A stretch of DNA of 26,366 nucleotides from a virus, in the IMG/VR virus record IMGVR_UViG_3300027969_000378, positions 1 through 26,366 of that record. The stretch is one strand, 5' to 3'. Position 1 is the stretch's first letter. Each line of letters begins with the position of its first letter. Both the position numbers and the translations under genes were made by a program. Positions 4,314 to 26,366 of this stretch are shown here, one piece after another. A model generated the notes under the pieces. The model saw only the letters and a list, made by a program, of their open reading frames with translations, made no database searches and was not told the origin of the DNA.

Positions 4314-6218
4314 ATGATGAGCGACAAACAGCGGAATTCGTTGCAGGGCCAGATTGTTGAGGCTGTTGCCCAGCGAAGCCCGTGGGAGATAAGGCAGACG
4401 CGGTGGTATGAGTTACGCCATCACGGATTGCGACGTACCAATAAGCCCTGGCCCAAGGCCGCGGATCTGCATTGGCCGCTCATTGATACGGCGATCGAGA
4501 AGCTCAAGCCGCTGTTCCTCCAGCAGGCGTTGGGCATGGATGTTGTGGCCAGCTTTGTTCCGATGCGCCAGCAGTTGAATGCGTATACGAAGGTGGCTGA
4601 GGACTGGTTCAATTATAAGATTCGGGACAAGACCAATTTTACGGATGAGGTATTGAGCTGGGTGGATTACACGCTGATGAGTGGGCGCGGGGTGATCAAG
4701 TGCTTCTGGAATCCCGGTGATAAGCGGGTGGGGTTTGAGGCGATTGACCCGATGTATTTCATTGTGCCGGCATACACCGTGGATTTGCAGGATGCAGATT
4801 GGGCGGTGCATGTGATGCCGATGAGTGTGGGGGCGTACAAGCGGATGGCTGGGCAGTTCGGGTGGAAGAGCGATTCCAAGACGATCGAGAAGATTCGGGG
4901 TAATCCGCAGCAGGACGATAACGTCCCGGGAGCAGCGACCGAGGAAGACGCAAAGCAGCTTCGCGAGGGTATCACTTACACGAGCAATACCGATGGGGTG
5001 ATTGTGTGGGAGGTGTACAAGAAGCGGGATGACGGGGTATGGGAGGTTTACCTGTACAGCCCCGCGGCAGTGGACATGGATCTGCGAGATCCGATGGAGT
5101 TGCCATATGATCATGGCCAATGTCCCTTCGTGGACTTCCCGTATGAGATCAAGGACAAGGGATGGTTCAGCCCGCGGGGCGTGTGCGAGATCTTGGCTCC
5201 GTTCGAGTTGTCCATGACCTCGATGTGGAACCATAAGCACGATGCGATGACGCTCTATAATCGCCCGCTATTTAGGGCGGAACGGGAGCTACCGAACAGT
5301 ATCAACTTGCGGTTCTCGCCCGGTCAGATCTTGCCGTATGGCGTGGCCCCGGTCCAGATGCCGCAGCCCCCGGTGAGCTTCGATCAGGAGCTAAACCAGA
5401 CTCGGGCGGTGGCGGAGAACCGGATCGGTAGTCCGGATTACGCGATGGGCAGTGCGATGGGCGGGGGTAGTGACCGGCGGACGGCGACCGAGATCCAGAG
5501 TATCAATGCTCAGGCAATGCAGAGCGGTGATCTGCGGGCGCGACTATTCCGTATGGCACTGGGCAAGATGTACCGGCAAGCTTGGGGACTTTATGTTCAG
5601 TATGATTCCAAGAGTTTACGATACCGCTTCGCGGAGGACTCGCTGGATGCGGATCCGGTGGCATTGCACGATCAATATGAGCTGGAACCGAAGGGCGGTA
5701 TGGACATGGTCAGCCGGCAGATGATGGTTCAGCAGGCCATTAACCGTAAGCAACTGTTCCAGAACAGCCCCTGGGTCGATCAGGTGGAGCTGGATAAGAG
5801 CATCATGGAGCTGGATGACCCGTCCCTGATCAAGCGATTGATACGGGATCCAGGTCAGAAGCAGCAGGATGAGCTTGAGGACGAGACCAAGACGATCCCG
5901 ACACTGCTAATCGGCATCCCGGTGCCGGCTAAACCGGGTCAGAACTTCGCGGGCCGTATCGGTGTGCTGATGCAGTACCTGAATGGGGCGATCCAGCAGG
6001 GGCAGCAGTTCAGTCCGGCTTCCAAGAATGCGTTTATGGTGCGGATTGACAGCCTGTTGCAGGGGTACGAGCAGGTGGCGACCAATGAAGCGCGGAAGTT
6101 GAGGGCTGAGATCCAGAAGTTCCTGACCAGCAGCGGTTTGTTGCAGCAGCAACAGCCTCAGATGCCAATGCCGCCCGCCGGCCCAGAGCCTCAGATGGCC
6201 CAGCCTCCCGTTCAATAA
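4314..6218 (+). CDS. Portal protein
   Basis: This 634-aa protein follows terL by 18 bases and matches podovirus-type portals in size. It should form the ring through which DNA enters and leaves the head. Seen in order: an N-terminal helical region, the segment DEVLSWVDYTLMSGRGVIKCFW (about 106-127) with the typical portal turn, the wing strands VWEVYKKRDDGVWEVYLY, and the stem and clip region around APFELSMTSMWNHKHDA and GSPDYAMGSAMGGGSDRRTATEIQ, the latter a clear portal signature (A-x-T-A-T-E-I). The C-terminal 40 residues are Gln/Pro/Met-rich and probably disordered. AGGAAGAGG lies about 11 bases upstream. ATG 4317 is an equal start choice. Confidence 0.92.
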   Translation: MMSDKQRNSLQGQIVEAVAQRSPWEIRQTRWYELRHHGLRRTNKPWPKAADLHWPLIDTAIEKLKPLFLQQALGMDVVASFVPMRQQLNAYTKVAEDWFNYKIRDKTNFTDEVLSWVDYTLMSGRGVIKCFWNPGDKRVGFEAIDPMYFIVPAYTVDLQDADWAVHVMPMSVGAYKRMAGQFGWKSDSKTIEKIRGNPQQDDNVPGAATEEDAKQLREGITYTSNTDGVIVWEVYKKRDDGVWEVYLYSPAAVDMDLRDPMELPYDHGQCPFVDFPYEIKDKGWFSPRGVCEILAPFELSMTSMWNHKHDAMTLYNRPLFRAERELPNSINLRFSPGQILPYGVAPVQMPQPPVSFDQELNQTRAVAENRIGSPDYAMGSAMGGGSDRRTATEIQSINAQAMQSGDLRARLFRMALGKMYRQAWGLYVQYDSKSLRYRFAEDSLDADPVALHDQYELEPKGGMDMVSRQMMVQQAINRKQLFQNSPWVDQVELDKSIMELDDPSLIKRLIRDPGQKQQDELEDETKTIPTLLIGIPVPAKPGQNFAGRIGVLMQYLNGAIQQGQQFSPASKNAFMVRIDSLLQGYEQVATNEARKLRAEIQKFLTSSGLLQQQQPQMPMPPAGPEPQMAQPPVQ

Positions 6219-18330: not shown

Positions 18331-19293
18331 ATGGCAAACGATACCGGATCAAACTACTTCTTTATACCGGGAGGAGAAACGCCTGCTCCACCGGTTACGC
18401 CCCCTCCTGCCATAAGCGAACCAATATCTCCGTTCGAGAAATACCTCATCGCGCTCGAAAATCTCCAGCCTCCTGTTGAGCTTAATCTTCCAACTTCTCA
18501 AGAGCCGGCTCCAACTCCTGTTTACTCGAATCAGGTTATTCGCAGGCCAACAGGCTTGCCTTCATTTCAAGTCACTCAAAGACCTTCGCTTGGACCAATT
18601 CCAAACGTTGTTTACGGATACGATACTCCGAAGGTGGTCAGTGCTTATGAACCTGACCTGAGTAATCCATCAACTATCGATCAGCCGTCTTTCACAACCC
18701 CCACCCAACCTCCTTCACAGGAAGTTGAAACAGGTGGAGGCGGAGAACCAACTGAGAGTGTTGAGGTTGGTGATGGACTAATTACTGACGAGAACAAGAA
18801 CAAATACCTTACCGAGTTCAAGATGGATCTACAGGGGCCTAACGTCCGGCCTACTGTGACTTCACCTCCAGAAGTTATTGCACTTCCAGAAACAGAGGCT
18901 CCTCCTTCTATATTTACACCAAGTCCTGTTGTTTCTACTCCGGCAACTCCTCCGCCCACCGTTATAGTGCCTGAAGTAAAGATTCCTGAACTTGTTGAGC
19001 CTCCAAAGATTACGTTCCCGATTGTAACTCCTCCTGAAAAACCGGTTGTGCCTAAGCCGGTTGTTCCGATTACTCCTGCAATAGTTCCGGTTACACCGAT
19101 CAATAGGCAACCAATCGTGCGTCCTGTTGTTGAACCCACTACAATTCCGATTGCGACCCGTAAGATGATTGAGTCTCTATCACCAGGATACTTCAAGGAT
19201 ATCAACTATGATCCCGATGAGATCCTTGCAGCGGCGATGCGGAGCATGGGCGGAAGACAAGCTCGTCGATCAATTTTAAACGAACTCCAATAA
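18331..19293 (+). CDS. Proline-rich internal protein candidate
   Basis: This 320-aa protein has GGAGG ten bases before ATG 18331. Residues about 167-275 are more than a quarter Pro, in pairs and triplets with Thr, Val, Glu and Ile (for example VTPPEKPVVPKPVVPITP). The N-terminal third is also Pro-rich, and the last 45 residues (MIESLSPGYFKDINYDPDEI, then AAAMRSMGGRQARR) look folded. There is no Cys. Such a protein would be extended and flexible. Its place between ejection candidates suggests an injected or linker role, but I recognise no family. Confidence 0.55.
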   Translation: MANDTGSNYFFIPGGETPAPPVTPPPAISEPISPFEKYLIALENLQPPVELNLPTSQEPAPTPVYSNQVIRRPTGLPSFQVTQRPSLGPIPNVVYGYDTPKVVSAYEPDLSNPSTIDQPSFTTPTQPPSQEVETGGGGEPTESVEVGDGLITDENKNKYLTEFKMDLQGPNVRPTVTSPPEVIALPETEAPPSIFTPSPVVSTPATPPPTVIVPEVKIPELVEPPKITFPIVTPPEKPVVPKPVVPITPAIVPVTPINRQPIVRPVVEPTTIPIATRKMIESLSPGYFKDINYDPDEILAAAMRSMGGRQARRSILNELQ

Positions 19294-20727: not shown

Positions 20728-23700
20728 ATGACAAAAACCCAACGTGATTGGTTGATCGAAAACAAACTTGATCCAGAGGTTTATGACATAGATGCGGAAG
20801 GAAACGTCTCTGAAAGCCCAATCATGGGTAAGCTTGAAGCTGGAGCTAGATCGGCTGCTGTCAGCGTTGCTCCTTCTCTCACTGCTATTCCTGCTTCGGT
20901 GGCAGGTGGTAAGGGTGGAGCCTTGCTTGGCGCACCGTTTGGTCCTGTTGGAGTGCTTGTAGGCGGAGGTTTAGGCGCGTTGAGTGCAGGTGCTGCGGCT
21001 GCTTACGCTACCAGCAAAGCTCAGGAAGCACTGCTTGAGAGGTACTCTCCTGAGACGCTTCAGAAGTTATCACAAGCTCAAGAAGAACAGCCTGTATCTT
21101 CTTACGTTGGTGGATTTGTTCCTACCGCGTTAACCGCTCGCCCATCCCTGAAAGGACTCAGCGAACTTGGTAGGCCACTGACTCGTCAGACTACGCTTCG
21201 TGAGGCTATCACCAAGCCGGCGTTTGTTGAGCCTGCCATGAACGTCGCGGCCAACGTCGCTCAATCTACCGGTCAGCAGATCGCTGATGTGGCTCAAGGA
21301 GGAGAGTTTTCCGGTGGCCGGCTCGCAGCGGACATTGCACTTGGCACCCTCTTCAATCGTCCAACTAGGTTGGGACGTAAGCTTGGTATGTCGGAAGGGC
21401 CTCAAGACGCTCCGCTTCAGAAGCTGGATCTTGAAGAGGCTAGGACTCGGATTGGAAAGCAAATTGACGCTGAACCCGCTCGGACTGAGCCTTCTCAACC
21501 AAAAGAAGAAAGTGATTGGTGGAAGTCATCCACTGAACCAACCGCTGATTTCATCAATGAAAAGGCAGCTAGGTTCAAGGTTGATGAGTTTGGAAACACT
21601 ATTGATGCGTTGGCAAAAGAGCCTAACGCAAATGATGTAGCTCAAACTCCAGATCAAGTTCCTAATTTCATTCAGAATAAATACGGAGAGTCGCTACAGT
21701 CTGCATACGAAAGCATTAGTAAAATAAACGAGACAAGCGACAAGTTGATAAGTGGACTTGCTGAAGAGCAGATGGGTGAGATTCAAAGGTCTTTGGCTCG
21801 AAAGAAAGAATCAGAGACTCTTGGGTTTAAAGACATTCTTCCAAAGACTTACGATGCTGCACAAGAGGTCTACGACACAATATCTGGCCGACTTCAACGC
21901 GAAGGCGAAGGCGCAAAGATCACTCAGCCCGACATAGATGCAGCCGCCCAGATCGCCGCTCGCCGAAATCTAACCATCGAGCTTGATCGTCCGTTCATTG
22001 GATCAACCGAGATCCGAGGTATGTACCTGTCTGATCCAGATACGGGTAACCGCATCGTCCGCGTTAACCCGTTGATGGCCACTCGTGACACGGCCATCCA
22101 TGAAATCGGTCACGATGTGTTCCAAGGGGTCACTAATCCTTCCATGCGGAAGTCTCTGCTTGAATCCGCTCAAGATACCCCCGCCTACAAGAGCGAGCTT
22201 CTGGCCCGCAATGCTGAGGTTCAGGAAGGCAAGCTCACGCCTAAGCAGGCCCAGGAAATCGCTCTTGAAGAAGGTCTCATCCAATCATTCGGAGAGCAGA
22301 TCCCGAACATCCAGCGTAGTGAGATCCGGTCTTGGTTCAACGCCTTCAAGGCTTCCACCAAGCAACTCTTCACTGGAAAGGTTTCACCCGAAGACGCTAT
22401 CGCGTGGATGCACTACGCAACCACCGAGTCAGTTCCTTGGAAGGGGGTGACCGCTCCAAAGGCAACTGAACAGCGTTTCCAACGGCCCGAGGAAAAGACC
22501 CGCAAGTTCGCAGGGCGTGTTGCCGAGGCTGAGTCAGTTCCTGAAGAGGTGCGACAAACAGTACGCCAGTCTCCTGAATCGCAATACGAGCAGCAGAAGG
22601 TGAACGAGGTGGTTGATCGCGCATCTTCGATGACGATGACTCAGCTCGCTGCTGATATGGCAGATACAGAGTCCAACACCAGGGTCGCTTCTGGAATGGA
22701 AACATTCAGTCGCCAGATCAATTCAGGTGATATGGCTGGGGCCAGCAGCACTGCGTTGTCTCTGTCCAAAAGCGGAACCACTTGGGGTCAGCTCATCAAT
22801 CAGTTCAAGCTCCTCAATTCCTCCACTCCAGAGGGATTGGTTCGGCTGGTTCAAGATTCGCTCGCAAATAAGAAACGACCGCCTCTTACCCAGCAACAGG
22901 CAGCTATCTTGATGGACGGTTCGAGCAGGCTAAAGCTGGCCGACAATGAAGTCCTGGCCGCAGGTCGCGTTGCCCGTGATGCGTTCGCTGCCAATGATGT
23001 CGCTGCAATAAACCAGAGCATCAAGCAACTGGACTTGGCCGATGCGAAACGATCCGAGATCGATGTCATCCTCAACGAGGCAATTTCCAAGATCAATCCA
23101 GCCGATGCCGCGGACTTGTTCATCTCGATGGTCCAGGGTTCCGTAATGGGACCAATATCCATCGTCCGCAACGTAGTGGGTAATGCCATCAATTACCCTT
23201 TGCGTGAGCTTGGAGATGCCGGTGCCGCACTCATCGACGCGACCTTCTCAAAGGACAAGAACAACTCCTTCAACATCCGCGCTCGTACTGTTGATCGAAT
23301 CGATGCAATCGGGAGATCGTTTCCAACCGTTGCTAAGACCCTTCTAAAAGGATCCAATGCAATGCCGTATGAGTTGGGAACCAGCATTGGTAACCCGCTC
23401 AACTTCCAGCGGGCATGGCGGCGAATTGCTGAGGACTTTGCTGCTGGCAAAATTGGTTCCGCGCTATCCCCTCGAAACCTGACCGAAGCAACTATCGGCA
23501 TCCTGCCGGACATCATGCTTCGCCTCACTCAGGCCACAGACATCCCGTTCCGACAAGCTGAACGCGCCCGCATCATCAGCGAGATCGGTCGCACCAAGGG
23601 TTTATCTGAAGCCCAGATCCAGATCGCCGTGCGAGATCCAAAGCTTGCGTTCGTTACCGATGTGGAAGCCCAGCGCGGTCGCCGCGGATTCACCGAAGAT

Positions 23701-25053
23701 GATCTGGCTACCATCGAAACCGAATCGGCTAGATCGGTGTTTCAACAAGATAACAAGGCAACCAAAGCGGTCGCCGGAATCAATCGGTTCATAAAAAATG
23801 AACTGGGATCTACAGGCTACATTCCCTATCGCCTCATCTCGCTGTTCCAAAAGACTCCCATCAATGTAGCCGCAGAGGCTCTCCAGTTTACTCCTGCCGG
23901 CGCATTGCAGGATTGGAGCAAAATGAGTCCTCGTGAGCGCAATATCGCGGCATCTCGAATCGCTGTCGGAGCAATGGTTACAACGGCTTTTGGTTACCTC
24001 TACCACAAAGGGATCATCACCCCGAACCTTGATACCGCTGGCGAGACCAACAAGGCTCGTGAGTTGGCCAAAGCTGGTGGCGTGATGCCTCCAGGCACGA
24101 TCAACCTGTCAGCGGTCAAACGGCTAGTTGGTGGGGGTAAAACAGAGTTTCAGGGGGGAGACACCGTTGTCGATCTCTCTTCGCTAGGAACCGCTGGCGC
24201 ATTGGGAATCATGGCTGGGACAGCCCTTCGGCAATCGGAACGTGGACGTACCAACGAGGAGCTGATGACCACGGTTTTCAAAGGCGTTCCAACCTCTGGA
24301 CTCAACTTCGTGATGGAGCAGCAGTTCCTCAAGGGAACCAGCGACTTCATCAAGCTGCTCTCGCAGGAATCCAGTAACTCAATGGATCGCTGGCTCAAGA
24401 ATCTTGCAGTCACCGCTGCAACGCCCTTGGCTCCAGCCGTCTTGGGATCTGTCCGCCGCGCTGAACGCGACAAGCTGCCGGTAATCGGTGGCCAGAGCTT
24501 CATCAAGGATACCGTCGATGAACTCAATCAGCGGTACGCCGCCCTTGGGTTGGCCATCCCTGGTGTAAAGGATCCGAACGCTATGCCGGTGCGCCGGGAT
24601 CTCTGGGGACAAGCCGTTGAACAGACTCCAAAGGGCAGCAACCCTTGGGTGTACCAGTTCTTCAATGCTTGGAAGGCCCGCGAGATCGATGCCGATCCGC
24701 TCAACACATCGATCTACACAATCTGGCGGAGAACCGCTGACAACAGCGCGATCCCTTCAGTTCCCAATCCAAGCCTGACTTGGAAGCAGAAGACCTACGA
24801 GCGGATGGCTCCTGAACAGTTTGATCGATACAGCGAATTGGTGGGGCAATACCGCAGATTGCGGGCAGAACAGGAGTTCATGCGTCCACGCTTCCAGCAG
24901 GGTGGCGATGAGCGAAAACTCAAGCTCCTGCAACGCGCCTACGATGATGGCCTGCTTATAGCCAAGAAGCAGTTTGTTCGAGAACTCGTGCAATCCGGTC
25001 AAACTCTCACGCCAGTCGCCGCTCGCCGGGGCTTCCAACAACCCTCCGAGTAA
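20728..25053 (+). CDS. Large ejection/polyvalent protein with zincin motif
   Basis: At 1441 aa this is the largest gene, like the largest ejection protein of podoviruses. Residues 48-100 are Gly/Ala-rich and hydrophobic, ending in helix AAYATSKAQEALLERY. Residues 455-465 contain TAIHEIGHDVF, an HExxH zinc-protease motif (H458, E459, H462), with Glu candidates for a third ligand at 510-515 (QEIALEEG). Further on, VMGPISIVRNVVGNAINYPL (about 807-826) is hydrophobic. The C-terminal 200 residues (KLPVIGGQSFIKD...DADPLNTS...APEQFDRYSELVGQ) resemble the ends of large polyvalent phage proteins. It could help penetrate the envelope. AGGA lies 10 bases before the start. The protease call needs structural support. 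Confidence 0.75.
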   Translation: MTKTQRDWLIENKLDPEVYDIDAEGNVSESPIMGKLEAGARSAAVSVAPSLTAIPASVAGGKGGALLGAPFGPVGVLVGGGLGALSAGAAAAYATSKAQEALLERYSPETLQKLSQAQEEQPVSSYVGGFVPTALTARPSLKGLSELGRPLTRQTTLREAITKPAFVEPAMNVAANVAQSTGQQIADVAQGGEFSGGRLAADIALGTLFNRPTRLGRKLGMSEGPQDAPLQKLDLEEARTRIGKQIDAEPARTEPSQPKEESDWWKSSTEPTADFINEKAARFKVDEFGNTIDALAKEPNANDVAQTPDQVPNFIQNKYGESLQSAYESISKINETSDKLISGLAEEQMGEIQRSLARKKESETLGFKDILPKTYDAAQEVYDTISGRLQREGEGAKITQPDIDAAAQIAARRNLTIELDRPFIGSTEIRGMYLSDPDTGNRIVRVNPLMATRDTAIHEIGHDVFQGVTNPSMRKSLLESAQDTPAYKSELLARNAEVQEGKLTPKQAQEIALEEGLIQSFGEQIPNIQRSEIRSWFNAFKASTKQLFTGKVSPEDAIAWMHYATTESVPWKGVTAPKATEQRFQRPEEKTRKFAGRVAEAESVPEEVRQTVRQSPESQYEQQKVNEVVDRASSMTMTQLAADMADTESNTRVASGMETFSRQINSGDMAGASSTALSLSKSGTTWGQLINQFKLLNSSTPEGLVRLVQDSLANKKRPPLTQQQAAILMDGSSRLKLADNEVLAAGRVARDAFAANDVAAINQSIKQLDLADAKRSEIDVILNEAISKINPADAADLFISMVQGSVMGPISIVRNVVGNAINYPLRELGDAGAALIDATFSKDKNNSFNIRARTVDRIDAIGRSFPTVAKTLLKGSNAMPYELGTSIGNPLNFQRAWRRIAEDFAAGKIGSALSPRNLTEATIGILPDIMLRLTQATDIPFRQAERARIISEIGRTKGLSEAQIQIAVRDPKLAFVTDVEAQRGRRGFTEDDLATIETESARSVFQQDNKATKAVAGINRFIKNELGSTGYIPYRLISLFQKTPINVAAEALQFTPAGALQDWSKMSPRERNIAASRIAVGAMVTTAFGYLYHKGIITPNLDTAGETNKARELAKAGGVMPPGTINLSAVKRLVGGGKTEFQGGDTVVDLSSLGTAGALGIMAGTALRQSERGRTNEELMTTVFKGVPTSGLNFVMEQQFLKGTSDFIKLLSQESSNSMDRWLKNLAVTAATPLAPAVLGSVRRAERDKLPVIGGQSFIKDTVDELNQRYAALGLAIPGVKDPNAMPVRRDLWGQAVEQTPKGSNPWVYQFFNAWKAREIDADPLNTSIYTIWRRTADNSAIPSVPNPSLTWKQKTYERMAPEQFDRYSELVGQYRRLRAEQEFMRPRFQQGGDERKLKLLQRAYDDGLLIAKKQFVRELVQSGQTLTPVAARRGFQQPSE

Positions 25054-25082: not shown

Positions 25083-25107
25083 GCAACACGCTGCTACTTT
25101 GGCTTGC

Positions 25108-25281
25108 GTGAGCGTAAAACTTCTAACCGTCCAAGAGATCGCTTCGGCCCTCGGGACTCATCCCGAGACGGTGCGTCGGTGGATCCGGTCAGGAAAACTT
25201 CCAGCCATGAAGGCGACGAAGCGCACCATCCGTGTCCGCTCCGATGTAATCGAGGAACTCCTCCGACAAAACCCACAATGA
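25108..25281 (+). CDS. MerR/excisionase-type HTH protein (57 aa)
   Basis: The GTG at 25108 gives MSVKLLTVQEIASALGTHPE, then TVRRWIRSGKLPAMKATKRT and IRVRSDVIEELLRQ. This is the helix-turn-helix_17/excisionase-type fold: TVQEIASALG, HPETVRRWIRSGKLPA, then a wing strand and a final helix. The product binds DNA and could be an early regulator or excisionase. No integrase is seen in the window. It precedes and overlaps the RecT-like gene, so autoregulation of that operon is plausible. An upstream TTG at 25081 is in frame but adds no recognisable sequence. Confidence 0.82.
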   Translation: MSVKLLTVQEIASALGTHPETVRRWIRSGKLPAMKATKRTIRVRSDVIEELLRQNPQ

Positions 25282-26066
25282 ACAACTCAATCGCAACGAC
25301 AACGTCCCCCTCGGATAACTCCGAGATGTACTCCAAGATCCAAGATCCCATCTCAGCCATCGAGAAGATGGGCGAGTGGATCGCGGCCAGCGGAATGCTT
25401 GGCTGCACCAAGGTCGAACAAGGTAAACTCATCGCGTGGCAATGCGCCGCCGAGAAGAAGACCCCGTTCGATTTCAAGAGAGAATATCACATCATCAACG
25501 GCTCCCTCAGCATGCGCTCCGATGCCATGCTCGCCGGATACCGTGCCCGCGGAGGTAAGATCCTCTGGAAGCAGTTTGACAGCCGCGCCGCCATCGCTCT
25601 CTGGACCTACGATGGAAACTCTTGCGAGATCTCATTCACCACCGAGGACGCTAAGATGGCCGGCTTACTACCCGCCAAGCCGGGGTCTGGATGGGCCAAG
25701 GATCCATCCGCAATGCTCCGCGCTCGTTGTATATCCAAAGCGGTTCGCATGCTCGCCCCCGAGGTTGTGGCCGGCATCTACACACCTGAAGAGACCGAGG
25801 AGTTTACCCCCGCTCTCACCGAGGTATCGGTAGCTCCCACCAAGAGCTTCGACATCACCGCCAAGCTTGAGGCCCTGTTCGAGGACCGCGAGGACGAGGT
25901 CAATGCTCTCCTACTCAAGGCCGGTCGCATTCAGGAAAGTCAGACCTTCCGCGATCTCCCCGATGCGGTCGCATCTAAGTACATCTCCAAGCCGGACCTG
26001 ATCCTCAGCAAGCTCGCCGTGATCGTCACCCCTGAGATCGCCACCACGGAGGTTTCCAATGGTTGA
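25278..26066 (+). CDS. recT: RecT-like single-strand annealing protein
   Basis: This 262-aa protein should coat single-stranded DNA and anneal complementary strands during phage recombination. Residues 38-60 (SGMLGCTKVEQGKLIAWQCA), 71-88 (HIINGSLSMRSDAMLAGYR) and 143-170 (PSAMLRARCISKAVRMLAPE, then VVAGIYTPEE) form the RecT/Bet-type core with its conserved R-x-R-x-x-x-K-A pattern. The C-terminal 90 residues are acidic and variable, as usual. It starts inside the stop of the HTH gene (ATGA) and overlaps the nuclease gene by eight bases, so the three genes form one operon. Confidence 0.82.
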   Translation: MNNSIATTTSPSDNSEMYSKIQDPISAIEKMGEWIAASGMLGCTKVEQGKLIAWQCAAEKKTPFDFKREYHIINGSLSMRSDAMLAGYRARGGKILWKQFDSRAAIALWTYDGNSCEISFTTEDAKMAGLLPAKPGSGWAKDPSAMLRARCISKAVRMLAPEVVAGIYTPEETEEFTPALTEVSVAPTKSFDITAKLEALFEDREDEVNALLLKAGRIQESQTFRDLPDAVASKYISKPDLILSKLAVIVTPEIATTEVSNG

Positions 26067-26366
26067 TATCATGTTCGACATGCCCTCCGCAGATTACCAC
26101 GAGGCGAAGGCACTATCGAAGTCCGGTCTCGATCAGTTTCGTAAGTCCCCCGCGCACTTCCGCTCTTGGCAGGATGGTAAGACTCGTAACGAATCCAGCC
26201 CCGCGCTGGAGTTCGGTACCGCTGCCCATTGCGCCGTGTTGGAGCCGGAACGCTTTATCCTGACCTACAGGATGTTCACTGGTGATCGTCGCACCAAGCA
26301 GGGTAAGGAAGACTACCAACTGATCATCGACAACGGACAGATCCCGCTGCCTCAAGATCAGTGGAA
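26059..26366 (+). CDS. RecE/PDDEXK-type exonuclease, 5' part
   Basis: Only the first 102 codons are inside the window; the gene runs off the right edge. It has a strong GGAGG six bases before ATG 26059. The product shows the N-terminal signature of RecE-like phage nucleases: MPSADYHEAKALSKSGLDQF, then RKSPAHFRSW, SPALEFGTAAHCAVLEPERF. The G-T-A-x-H-x-x-x-L-E-P motif is characteristic. Catalytic D/E-x-K residues would lie beyond the edge. It should degrade one strand of duplex ends to feed the RecT-like partner. Confidence 0.85.
   Translation, partial: MVDIMFDMPSADYHEAKALSKSGLDQFRKSPAHFRSWQDGKTRNESSPALEFGTAAHCAVLEPERFILTYRMFTGDRRTKQGKEDYQLIIDNGQIPLPQDQW

Follow-up and report, generated by a model that had tools for sequence, protein, structure and literature searches.

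Zincin-like metallopeptidases (MPTases) are the commonest domain of polyvalent proteins, and since 2017 they have been proposed either to cut the chains in which they are embedded or to act on host proteins (Iyer et al. 2017, PMC5512222). In that description the domain consists of a helix, three strands, a helix carrying HExxH and a Glu residue on a second C-terminal helix, the last two helices being separated by inserts that vary. Linkers, processing sites and recurrent joint peptides are not mentioned in the main text of that paper. One large protein of phage P1, DdrB, is reported as processed and has been assigned a C-terminal MPTase (PMC5512222, PMC9024508). In the present study we analysed a giant gene (20728..25053; this and all further features lie on the + strand) of IMG/VR record IMGVR_UViG_3300027969_000378, a virus record of 26 kb that is probably a fragment and the 26,366 nucleotides of which are referred to below as the window. 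The gene encodes a modular, polyvalent-type protein of 1441 amino acids (aa). In this protein and its zincin-bearing relatives the module joints carry a short peptide, R-[FYLM]-[QS]-R, which goes with a zincin-type domain; this domain may well cut its own chain at these sites.

The zincin-type domain

An earlier note on this DNA, made from the sequence alone, had pointed to TAIHEIGHDVF (aa 455-465) as a zincin signature. This peptide is present at these positions of the 1441-aa open reading frame (ORF), with HEIGH at aa 458-462 (22099..22113), and in composition-preserving shuffles of the protein HExxH arose by chance at a rate of 0.0008 per copy. A first scan of viral contigs, performed with peptide patterns free of the HExxH motif, revealed 49 loci with relatives, and HEIGHD was kept in all 35 of these that covered the zincin module; the signature was thus borne out by its close homologues. 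Both ALEEG (aa 512-516; 22261..22275) and H462, the second His, were invariant in a wider set that extends down to ~47% identity. Neither of these had been part of the search patterns, while the HE pair had, and the conservation of HE in this divergent set is therefore partly by construction.

H458 and H462 are the predicted zinc ligands, with E459 as the predicted general base. The earlier note had also suggested that a downstream Glu could supply the third ligand. This is supported by the invariant ALEEG, whose E514 and E515 lie 52-53 residues past the second His, on a later predicted helix. Profile-profile comparison with the HExxH domain (C1) of N4-type virion RNA polymerases (P ~0.001) placed both HExxH and ALEEG in register with their N4 counterparts, the latter with ALNEF, the Glu of which is invariant in those polymerases. 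E515 is the best candidate for the third ligand because it is in register with this Glu, and E514 is the alternative. In a second alignment (P 0.004) the similarity extended beyond the motifs; a control comparison with an alignment of ADP-ribosyltransferase (ART) domains gave P 0.08.

Two structural models predicted the same topology, i.e. a helix, three strands, the HExxH helix, two inserted helices and the ALEEG helix (in model numbering, helix 26-38; strands 41-45, 57-61 and 68-72; helix 79-90, holding HEIGH at 84-88; ALEEG helix 131-150). It equals the definition of the zincin-like MPTase in PMC5512222, with HExxH on one helix and Glu on a later one, and the structure prediction proposed as a check in the earlier note is favourable as regards topology, at modest confidence. 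The mean pLDDT was 71 for the first model and 64 for the second, which was based on a more diverse alignment. The first model gave no fold match; with the more diverse alignment the mean confidence went down, yet zincins moved to the top of the fold matches. Among predicted viral structures (BFVD) giant phage proteins matched best, with E 2e-4 and, for one that bears the name of a large polyvalent protein, E 4e-4; IrrE, SprT and lethal-factor-like proteins came next. Matches to solved structures (PDB) were weak (E 0.15 or weaker) and were led by zincins (MATCAP, CapP, MMP-11).

The zincin clade of the window protein has no match in Pfam, PHROGs or NCBIfam, its profile retrieved only chance matches from PDB sequences, and the domain was not found in the bacterial genomes searched. 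Sequence comparison establishes a zincin-type domain, and aa 392-582 (21901..22473) very probably form a zincin of the polyvalent MPTase type, a kind known from proteins injected by phages along with their DNA; zinc binding and proteolytic activity are predicted for it.

Module exchange and the joint peptides

Upstream of the zincin lies an N-terminal part (aa 1-387; 20728..21888), variable apart from a Gly/Ala-rich hydrophobic stretch at aa 74-92 (hydropathy); downstream of it lies a conserved C-terminal part (aa 587-1441; 22486..25050), which is common to zincin-bearing and zincin-lacking relatives. The latter (L030, L033-L037, L041, L045) share the C-terminal part and have a wholly different N-terminal part devoid of HExxH. 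In the close ones the C-terminal part is 59-64% identical to that of the window protein and the major capsid protein, where checked, 81-93% identical to that of the window. Such capsid identity indicates that the zincin-bearing N-terminal half has been swapped in phages that are otherwise nearly alike, and therefore that the zincin is no constant component of the entry apparatus. The zincin also occurs in phages with a different C-terminal part and no recognisable match to the window capsid protein.

A slot between the zincin and the C-terminal part is empty in the window protein and occupied in relatives, by an ART (ART-PolyVal, PF18760, E down to 2e-28), by a second, HELGH zincin or by inserts without a match (L009, L031). 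Unrelated enzymatic domains are thus combined in one chain in the relatives (zincin and ART), while the window protein shows the zincin alone as a recognisable enzyme. Taken with its relatives, the architecture is that of a polyvalent protein, and the exchange of modules is established by sequence comparison. The polyvalent-protein context, which the earlier note had read from the C-terminus, is supported by the ART fused in relatives as well as by the fold matches.

Several further observations concern these variable regions. In L081 (aa 788-795) and L102 (aa 811-818) a second, distinct zincin motif, VLKHELGHID, stands between the first zincin and the ART. The slots of L009, L012, L023, L031 and L040 hold inserts of ~170-240 aa without library match, which are candidates for unknown effector domains. 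Near the slot of L045, which has neither the zincin nor the joint peptide, there is a ParB-like insert (L045:9245-10075) slightly under the Pfam cut-off. Finally, an extra segment of ~75-80 aa (KDIPPE...AAFTPEGG.R..P) occurs near the position of window aa 374 in L007, L012 and L018, and its presence varies between close relatives.

The peptide R-[FYLM]-[QS]-R is found at the joints of these modules. It stands on either side of the zincin, behind every inserted module and immediately ahead of the C-terminal part. The joints of the window protein are RLQR (aa 388-391; 21889..21900), upstream of the zincin, and RFQR (aa 583-586; 22474..22485), at the junction of the zincin with the C-terminal part; both are candidate cleavage sites, and the segment around RFQR had low confidence in both structure predictions and is probably flexible. 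In the otherwise variable linker that precedes the zincin, R, Q and R of the joint peptide hardly vary. The same peptide follows modules that are not homologous to one another (the zincin, the ART, the second zincin and two unnamed inserts). When all gapped patterns of three residues were scanned, with no regard to R-[FYLM]-[QS]-R, there were 64 occurrences of RxQR against 9 expected (7-fold), in 18 unlike contexts and with at least 2 copies in each of 20 proteins. The Arg residues of the joints make use of all six codons; it is therefore the peptide that is conserved and not a DNA site, and a recombination site acting at the DNA level was rejected on this ground.

No joint peptide is present in the relatives that share the C-terminal part and lack the zincin; the only exceptions are two matches of the serine type in L036, among them RFSK, which is not far from the joint. 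The association is not perfect in the zincin-bearing relatives either: an exact pre-zincin match is missing in some of them (e.g. L013, L014, L038), and a few extra matches fall outside the joints. Among the other ORFs of the window the motif occurs in a single small one, probably by chance. Nevertheless, these comparisons establish that the joint peptide recurs and that it is linked with the zincin. A search of open-licence full texts revealed no report of the peptides, although reports elsewhere are possible. Sequences of the form PLSxRF lie near some joints, and the literature on the name PLxRFG offered nothing useful.

Proposed self-cutting at the joints and its alternatives

The survey was extended to ART-domain relatives from ~90 other loci. 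Their joint peptides recur within a protein and differ between proteins (FSIRED, TFNL, [FM]QK, SKQR, YA[LV]G, [FY]SR, [RK]SxxR, LNQ and others). For 55 non-redundant ARTs, the within-protein match between the peptide preceding the ART and that following it was not equalled in any of 20,000 permutations (z 8.2), and it persisted after duplications had been removed (52 ARTs, z 6.8). The match was clear for the 35 ORFs that carry HExxH in the same ORF (z 6.5, 0/20,000 permutations), whereas for the 17 ORFs without HExxH it was not clear (z 1.5, 1431/20,000 permutations).

Individual peptides also follow the class of zincin. R-[FYLM]-Q-R occurs 52 times in the class of the window protein against 1.5 expected (36-fold) and is not enriched in the three other zincin classes tested, nor in the zincin-lacking relatives; [IV]x[RK]SxxR is 29-fold enriched in the GHE zincin class and [FY]SR 4-fold in the class of phage F116. 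This class matrix is descriptive, since the patterns were picked after looking. For the other zincin classes an unbiased scan of patterns was dominated by repeated domains and therefore gave no clear-cut picture.

Some of the surveyed loci deserve separate mention. The polyvalent proteins of L219 (ORF at 6119), L191, L211, L224, L244, L225, L190, L226, L168 and L169 are unrelated, and in each of them a short peptide of its own is repeated at the borders of the ART and other modules. In L190 and L226 a giant ART ORF without HExxH adjoins a giant ORF with a GHE-type zincin, and [RK]SxxR joints are present in both, which would suit action in trans. The ART search of bacterial genomes revealed 7 loci only. 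Limnohabitans phage DC33 (PQ492659.1, L166) is labelled Inoviridae but looks like a tailed phage: its genome measures 39 kb and encodes a protein of 3125 aa in which ART and zincin motifs occur.

We propose that the window protein is a polyvalent-type chain, in which exchangeable modules are carried on a conserved C-terminal part and which is probably packaged and delivered with the DNA. Its gluzincin-like metallopeptidase (aa 392-582), with H458, E459, H462 and E515 or E514 as the third ligand, would cut its own chain at the R-[FYLM]-[QS]-R joints. The predicted products are three: aa 1-391, aa 392-586 with the protease, and aa 587-1441, which make up the C-terminal part. From the chains of relatives, cutting would release the inserted effector domains, e.g. 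ADP-ribosyltransferases. We infer that the joints are likely to be cut, probably by this zincin; joint cutting is the most likely main function of the domain, at about even odds. A more tentative extension, possible though rather doubtful at present, is a joint code, in which the zincin of each lineage recognises its own short peptide at the module joints (R-[FYLM]-Q-R in the window class, [FY]SR in F116-like proteins, [IV]x[RK]SxxR and others elsewhere), protease and code having changed together as modules were swapped.

Several points weigh against this proposal. The N4 virion RNA polymerase (vRNAP), which has a related domain, is packaged uncut (PMC5512222). Matching joints occur in ART proteins without a visible HExxH (L244, L211, L257), most of which are fragments, and the direct contrast between zincin-bearing and zincin-less ORFs is suggestive only (p 0.08). 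The motif pattern and the classes of the matrix were picked after inspection. Moreover, the pLDDT values are modest and, in the second model, low at the active-site helix.

In the earlier note the protease was envisaged to target proteins of the host or the phage, during entry or after injection. Its zincin-type domain stands; as for its main job, the evidence points more to cutting of its own chain than to cutting of host proteins or the cell wall. A zincin acting as an effector that cuts a host defence or regulatory protein after injection, with the joint peptides as mere linkers, seems unlikely. Such action is listed as a possibility in PMC5512222, and it would suit a domain that is exchangeable as a module, like effectors, and is the only recognisable enzyme of the window protein (Pfam, PHROG, NCBIfam). 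It leaves unexplained, however, the repeated presence of R-[FYLM]-[QS]-R at joints whose flanks are unlike, as well as its absence from zincin-lacking relatives.

Only slightly less plausible is that the joint peptides are real without being cleavage sites, i.e. that they are docking or packaging signals or remnants of module exchange. The modules have clearly been exchanged, the ART module tends to bring its own tail (DI[RL][FY][SQ]R), in phage F116 as well, and some proteins with matching joints have no HExxH. Against this reading, the use of all six Arg codons rules out a crossover site in the DNA, one and the same peptide stands after non-homologous modules, and only in zincin-bearing ORFs do the joints of a protein clearly match each other.

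Cutting of the joints by another protease, of the phage or of the host, is improbable. Flexible linkers containing Arg are easy targets and P1 has a separate prohead protease (PMC9024508), but zincin-lacking relatives with an 81-93% identical capsid protein have no joint peptides, the class of joint peptide tracks the class of zincin, and among the other window ORFs the motif is confined to a small one, probably by chance. Opening of the cell wall or envelope as the phage enters, in the manner of T7 gp16, a parallel drawn in the earlier note, fits the position of the gene after the tail genes and the hydrophobic N-terminal segment and is nonetheless highly improbable, and was dropped, as Pfam, PHROGs, PDB sequences and fold comparison revealed no lysozyme, transglycosylase or other wall-hydrolase match, the sequence libraries gave no T7 gp16-like match either, the fold matches are protein-cutting zincins and the module is missing in close relatives.

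If the joint peptides are indeed the sites, self-cutting becomes testable through one motif or one catalytic residue. These peptides would also provide a sequence-only route to module borders and hence to effector domains absent from libraries. Since phages whose capsid proteins are almost identical have exchanged the zincin half, natural controls exist that either have or lack the protease.

Genomic setting and comparison with known systems

The giant gene follows the block of capsid and tail genes and precedes RecT; from this order and from the family, the protein is probably packaged and injected with the DNA. The segment directly after it (25104-26364) encodes a RecT-like annealing protein, followed by the first part of an exonuclease. 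The block before it includes a 320-aa protein (18331-19293), very rich in Pro, Val and Thr and without a PHROG match. The whole 1441-aa protein gave nothing significant in Pfam, PHROGs, NCBIfam or PDB sequences, its C-terminal part has no Pfam, PHROG or NCBIfam match, and tblastn with the whole protein and with the zincin domain found no relative among named phages.

Among the known systems, N4 vRNAP is, like the window protein, a giant late phage protein, and its C1 domain (aa 2124-2375; PMC12633501) shares HExxH and ALxE in register, as well as a similar following segment, with the window zincin. The similarity is at profile level only, and the HExxH domain alone is common to the two proteins: N4 vRNAP carries an RNA polymerase and remains uncut, whereas Pfam, PHROGs and PDB sequences gave no RNA polymerase match in the window protein. 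DdrB and DarB of P1, antirestriction proteins packaged in the head, may be likened to the window protein by description, as large phage proteins. The giant proteins of phage F116 and its relatives have an ART flanked by [FY]SR joint peptides and two zincins in the same chain; they differ in the class of zincin, the joint peptide and the remaining modules. An analogy without homology is provided by those viral polyproteins in which a protease lies within the chain and a peptide is repeated at the joints.

There is a close likeness to the polyvalent MPTase proteins that Iyer et al. (PMC5512222) described from phages and conjugative elements, which are also multi-module chains with an MPTase that has HExxH and a Glu on the second C-terminal helix; the ART and ParB-like domains of the window's relatives belong to the same picture. 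The window protein departs from them in a zincin clade without library match and in joint peptides of which the main text of that paper makes no mention. Autoprocessing had already been proposed for these proteins; what the present analysis adds is a set of joint peptides that go with the protease and are candidates for its cleavage sites.

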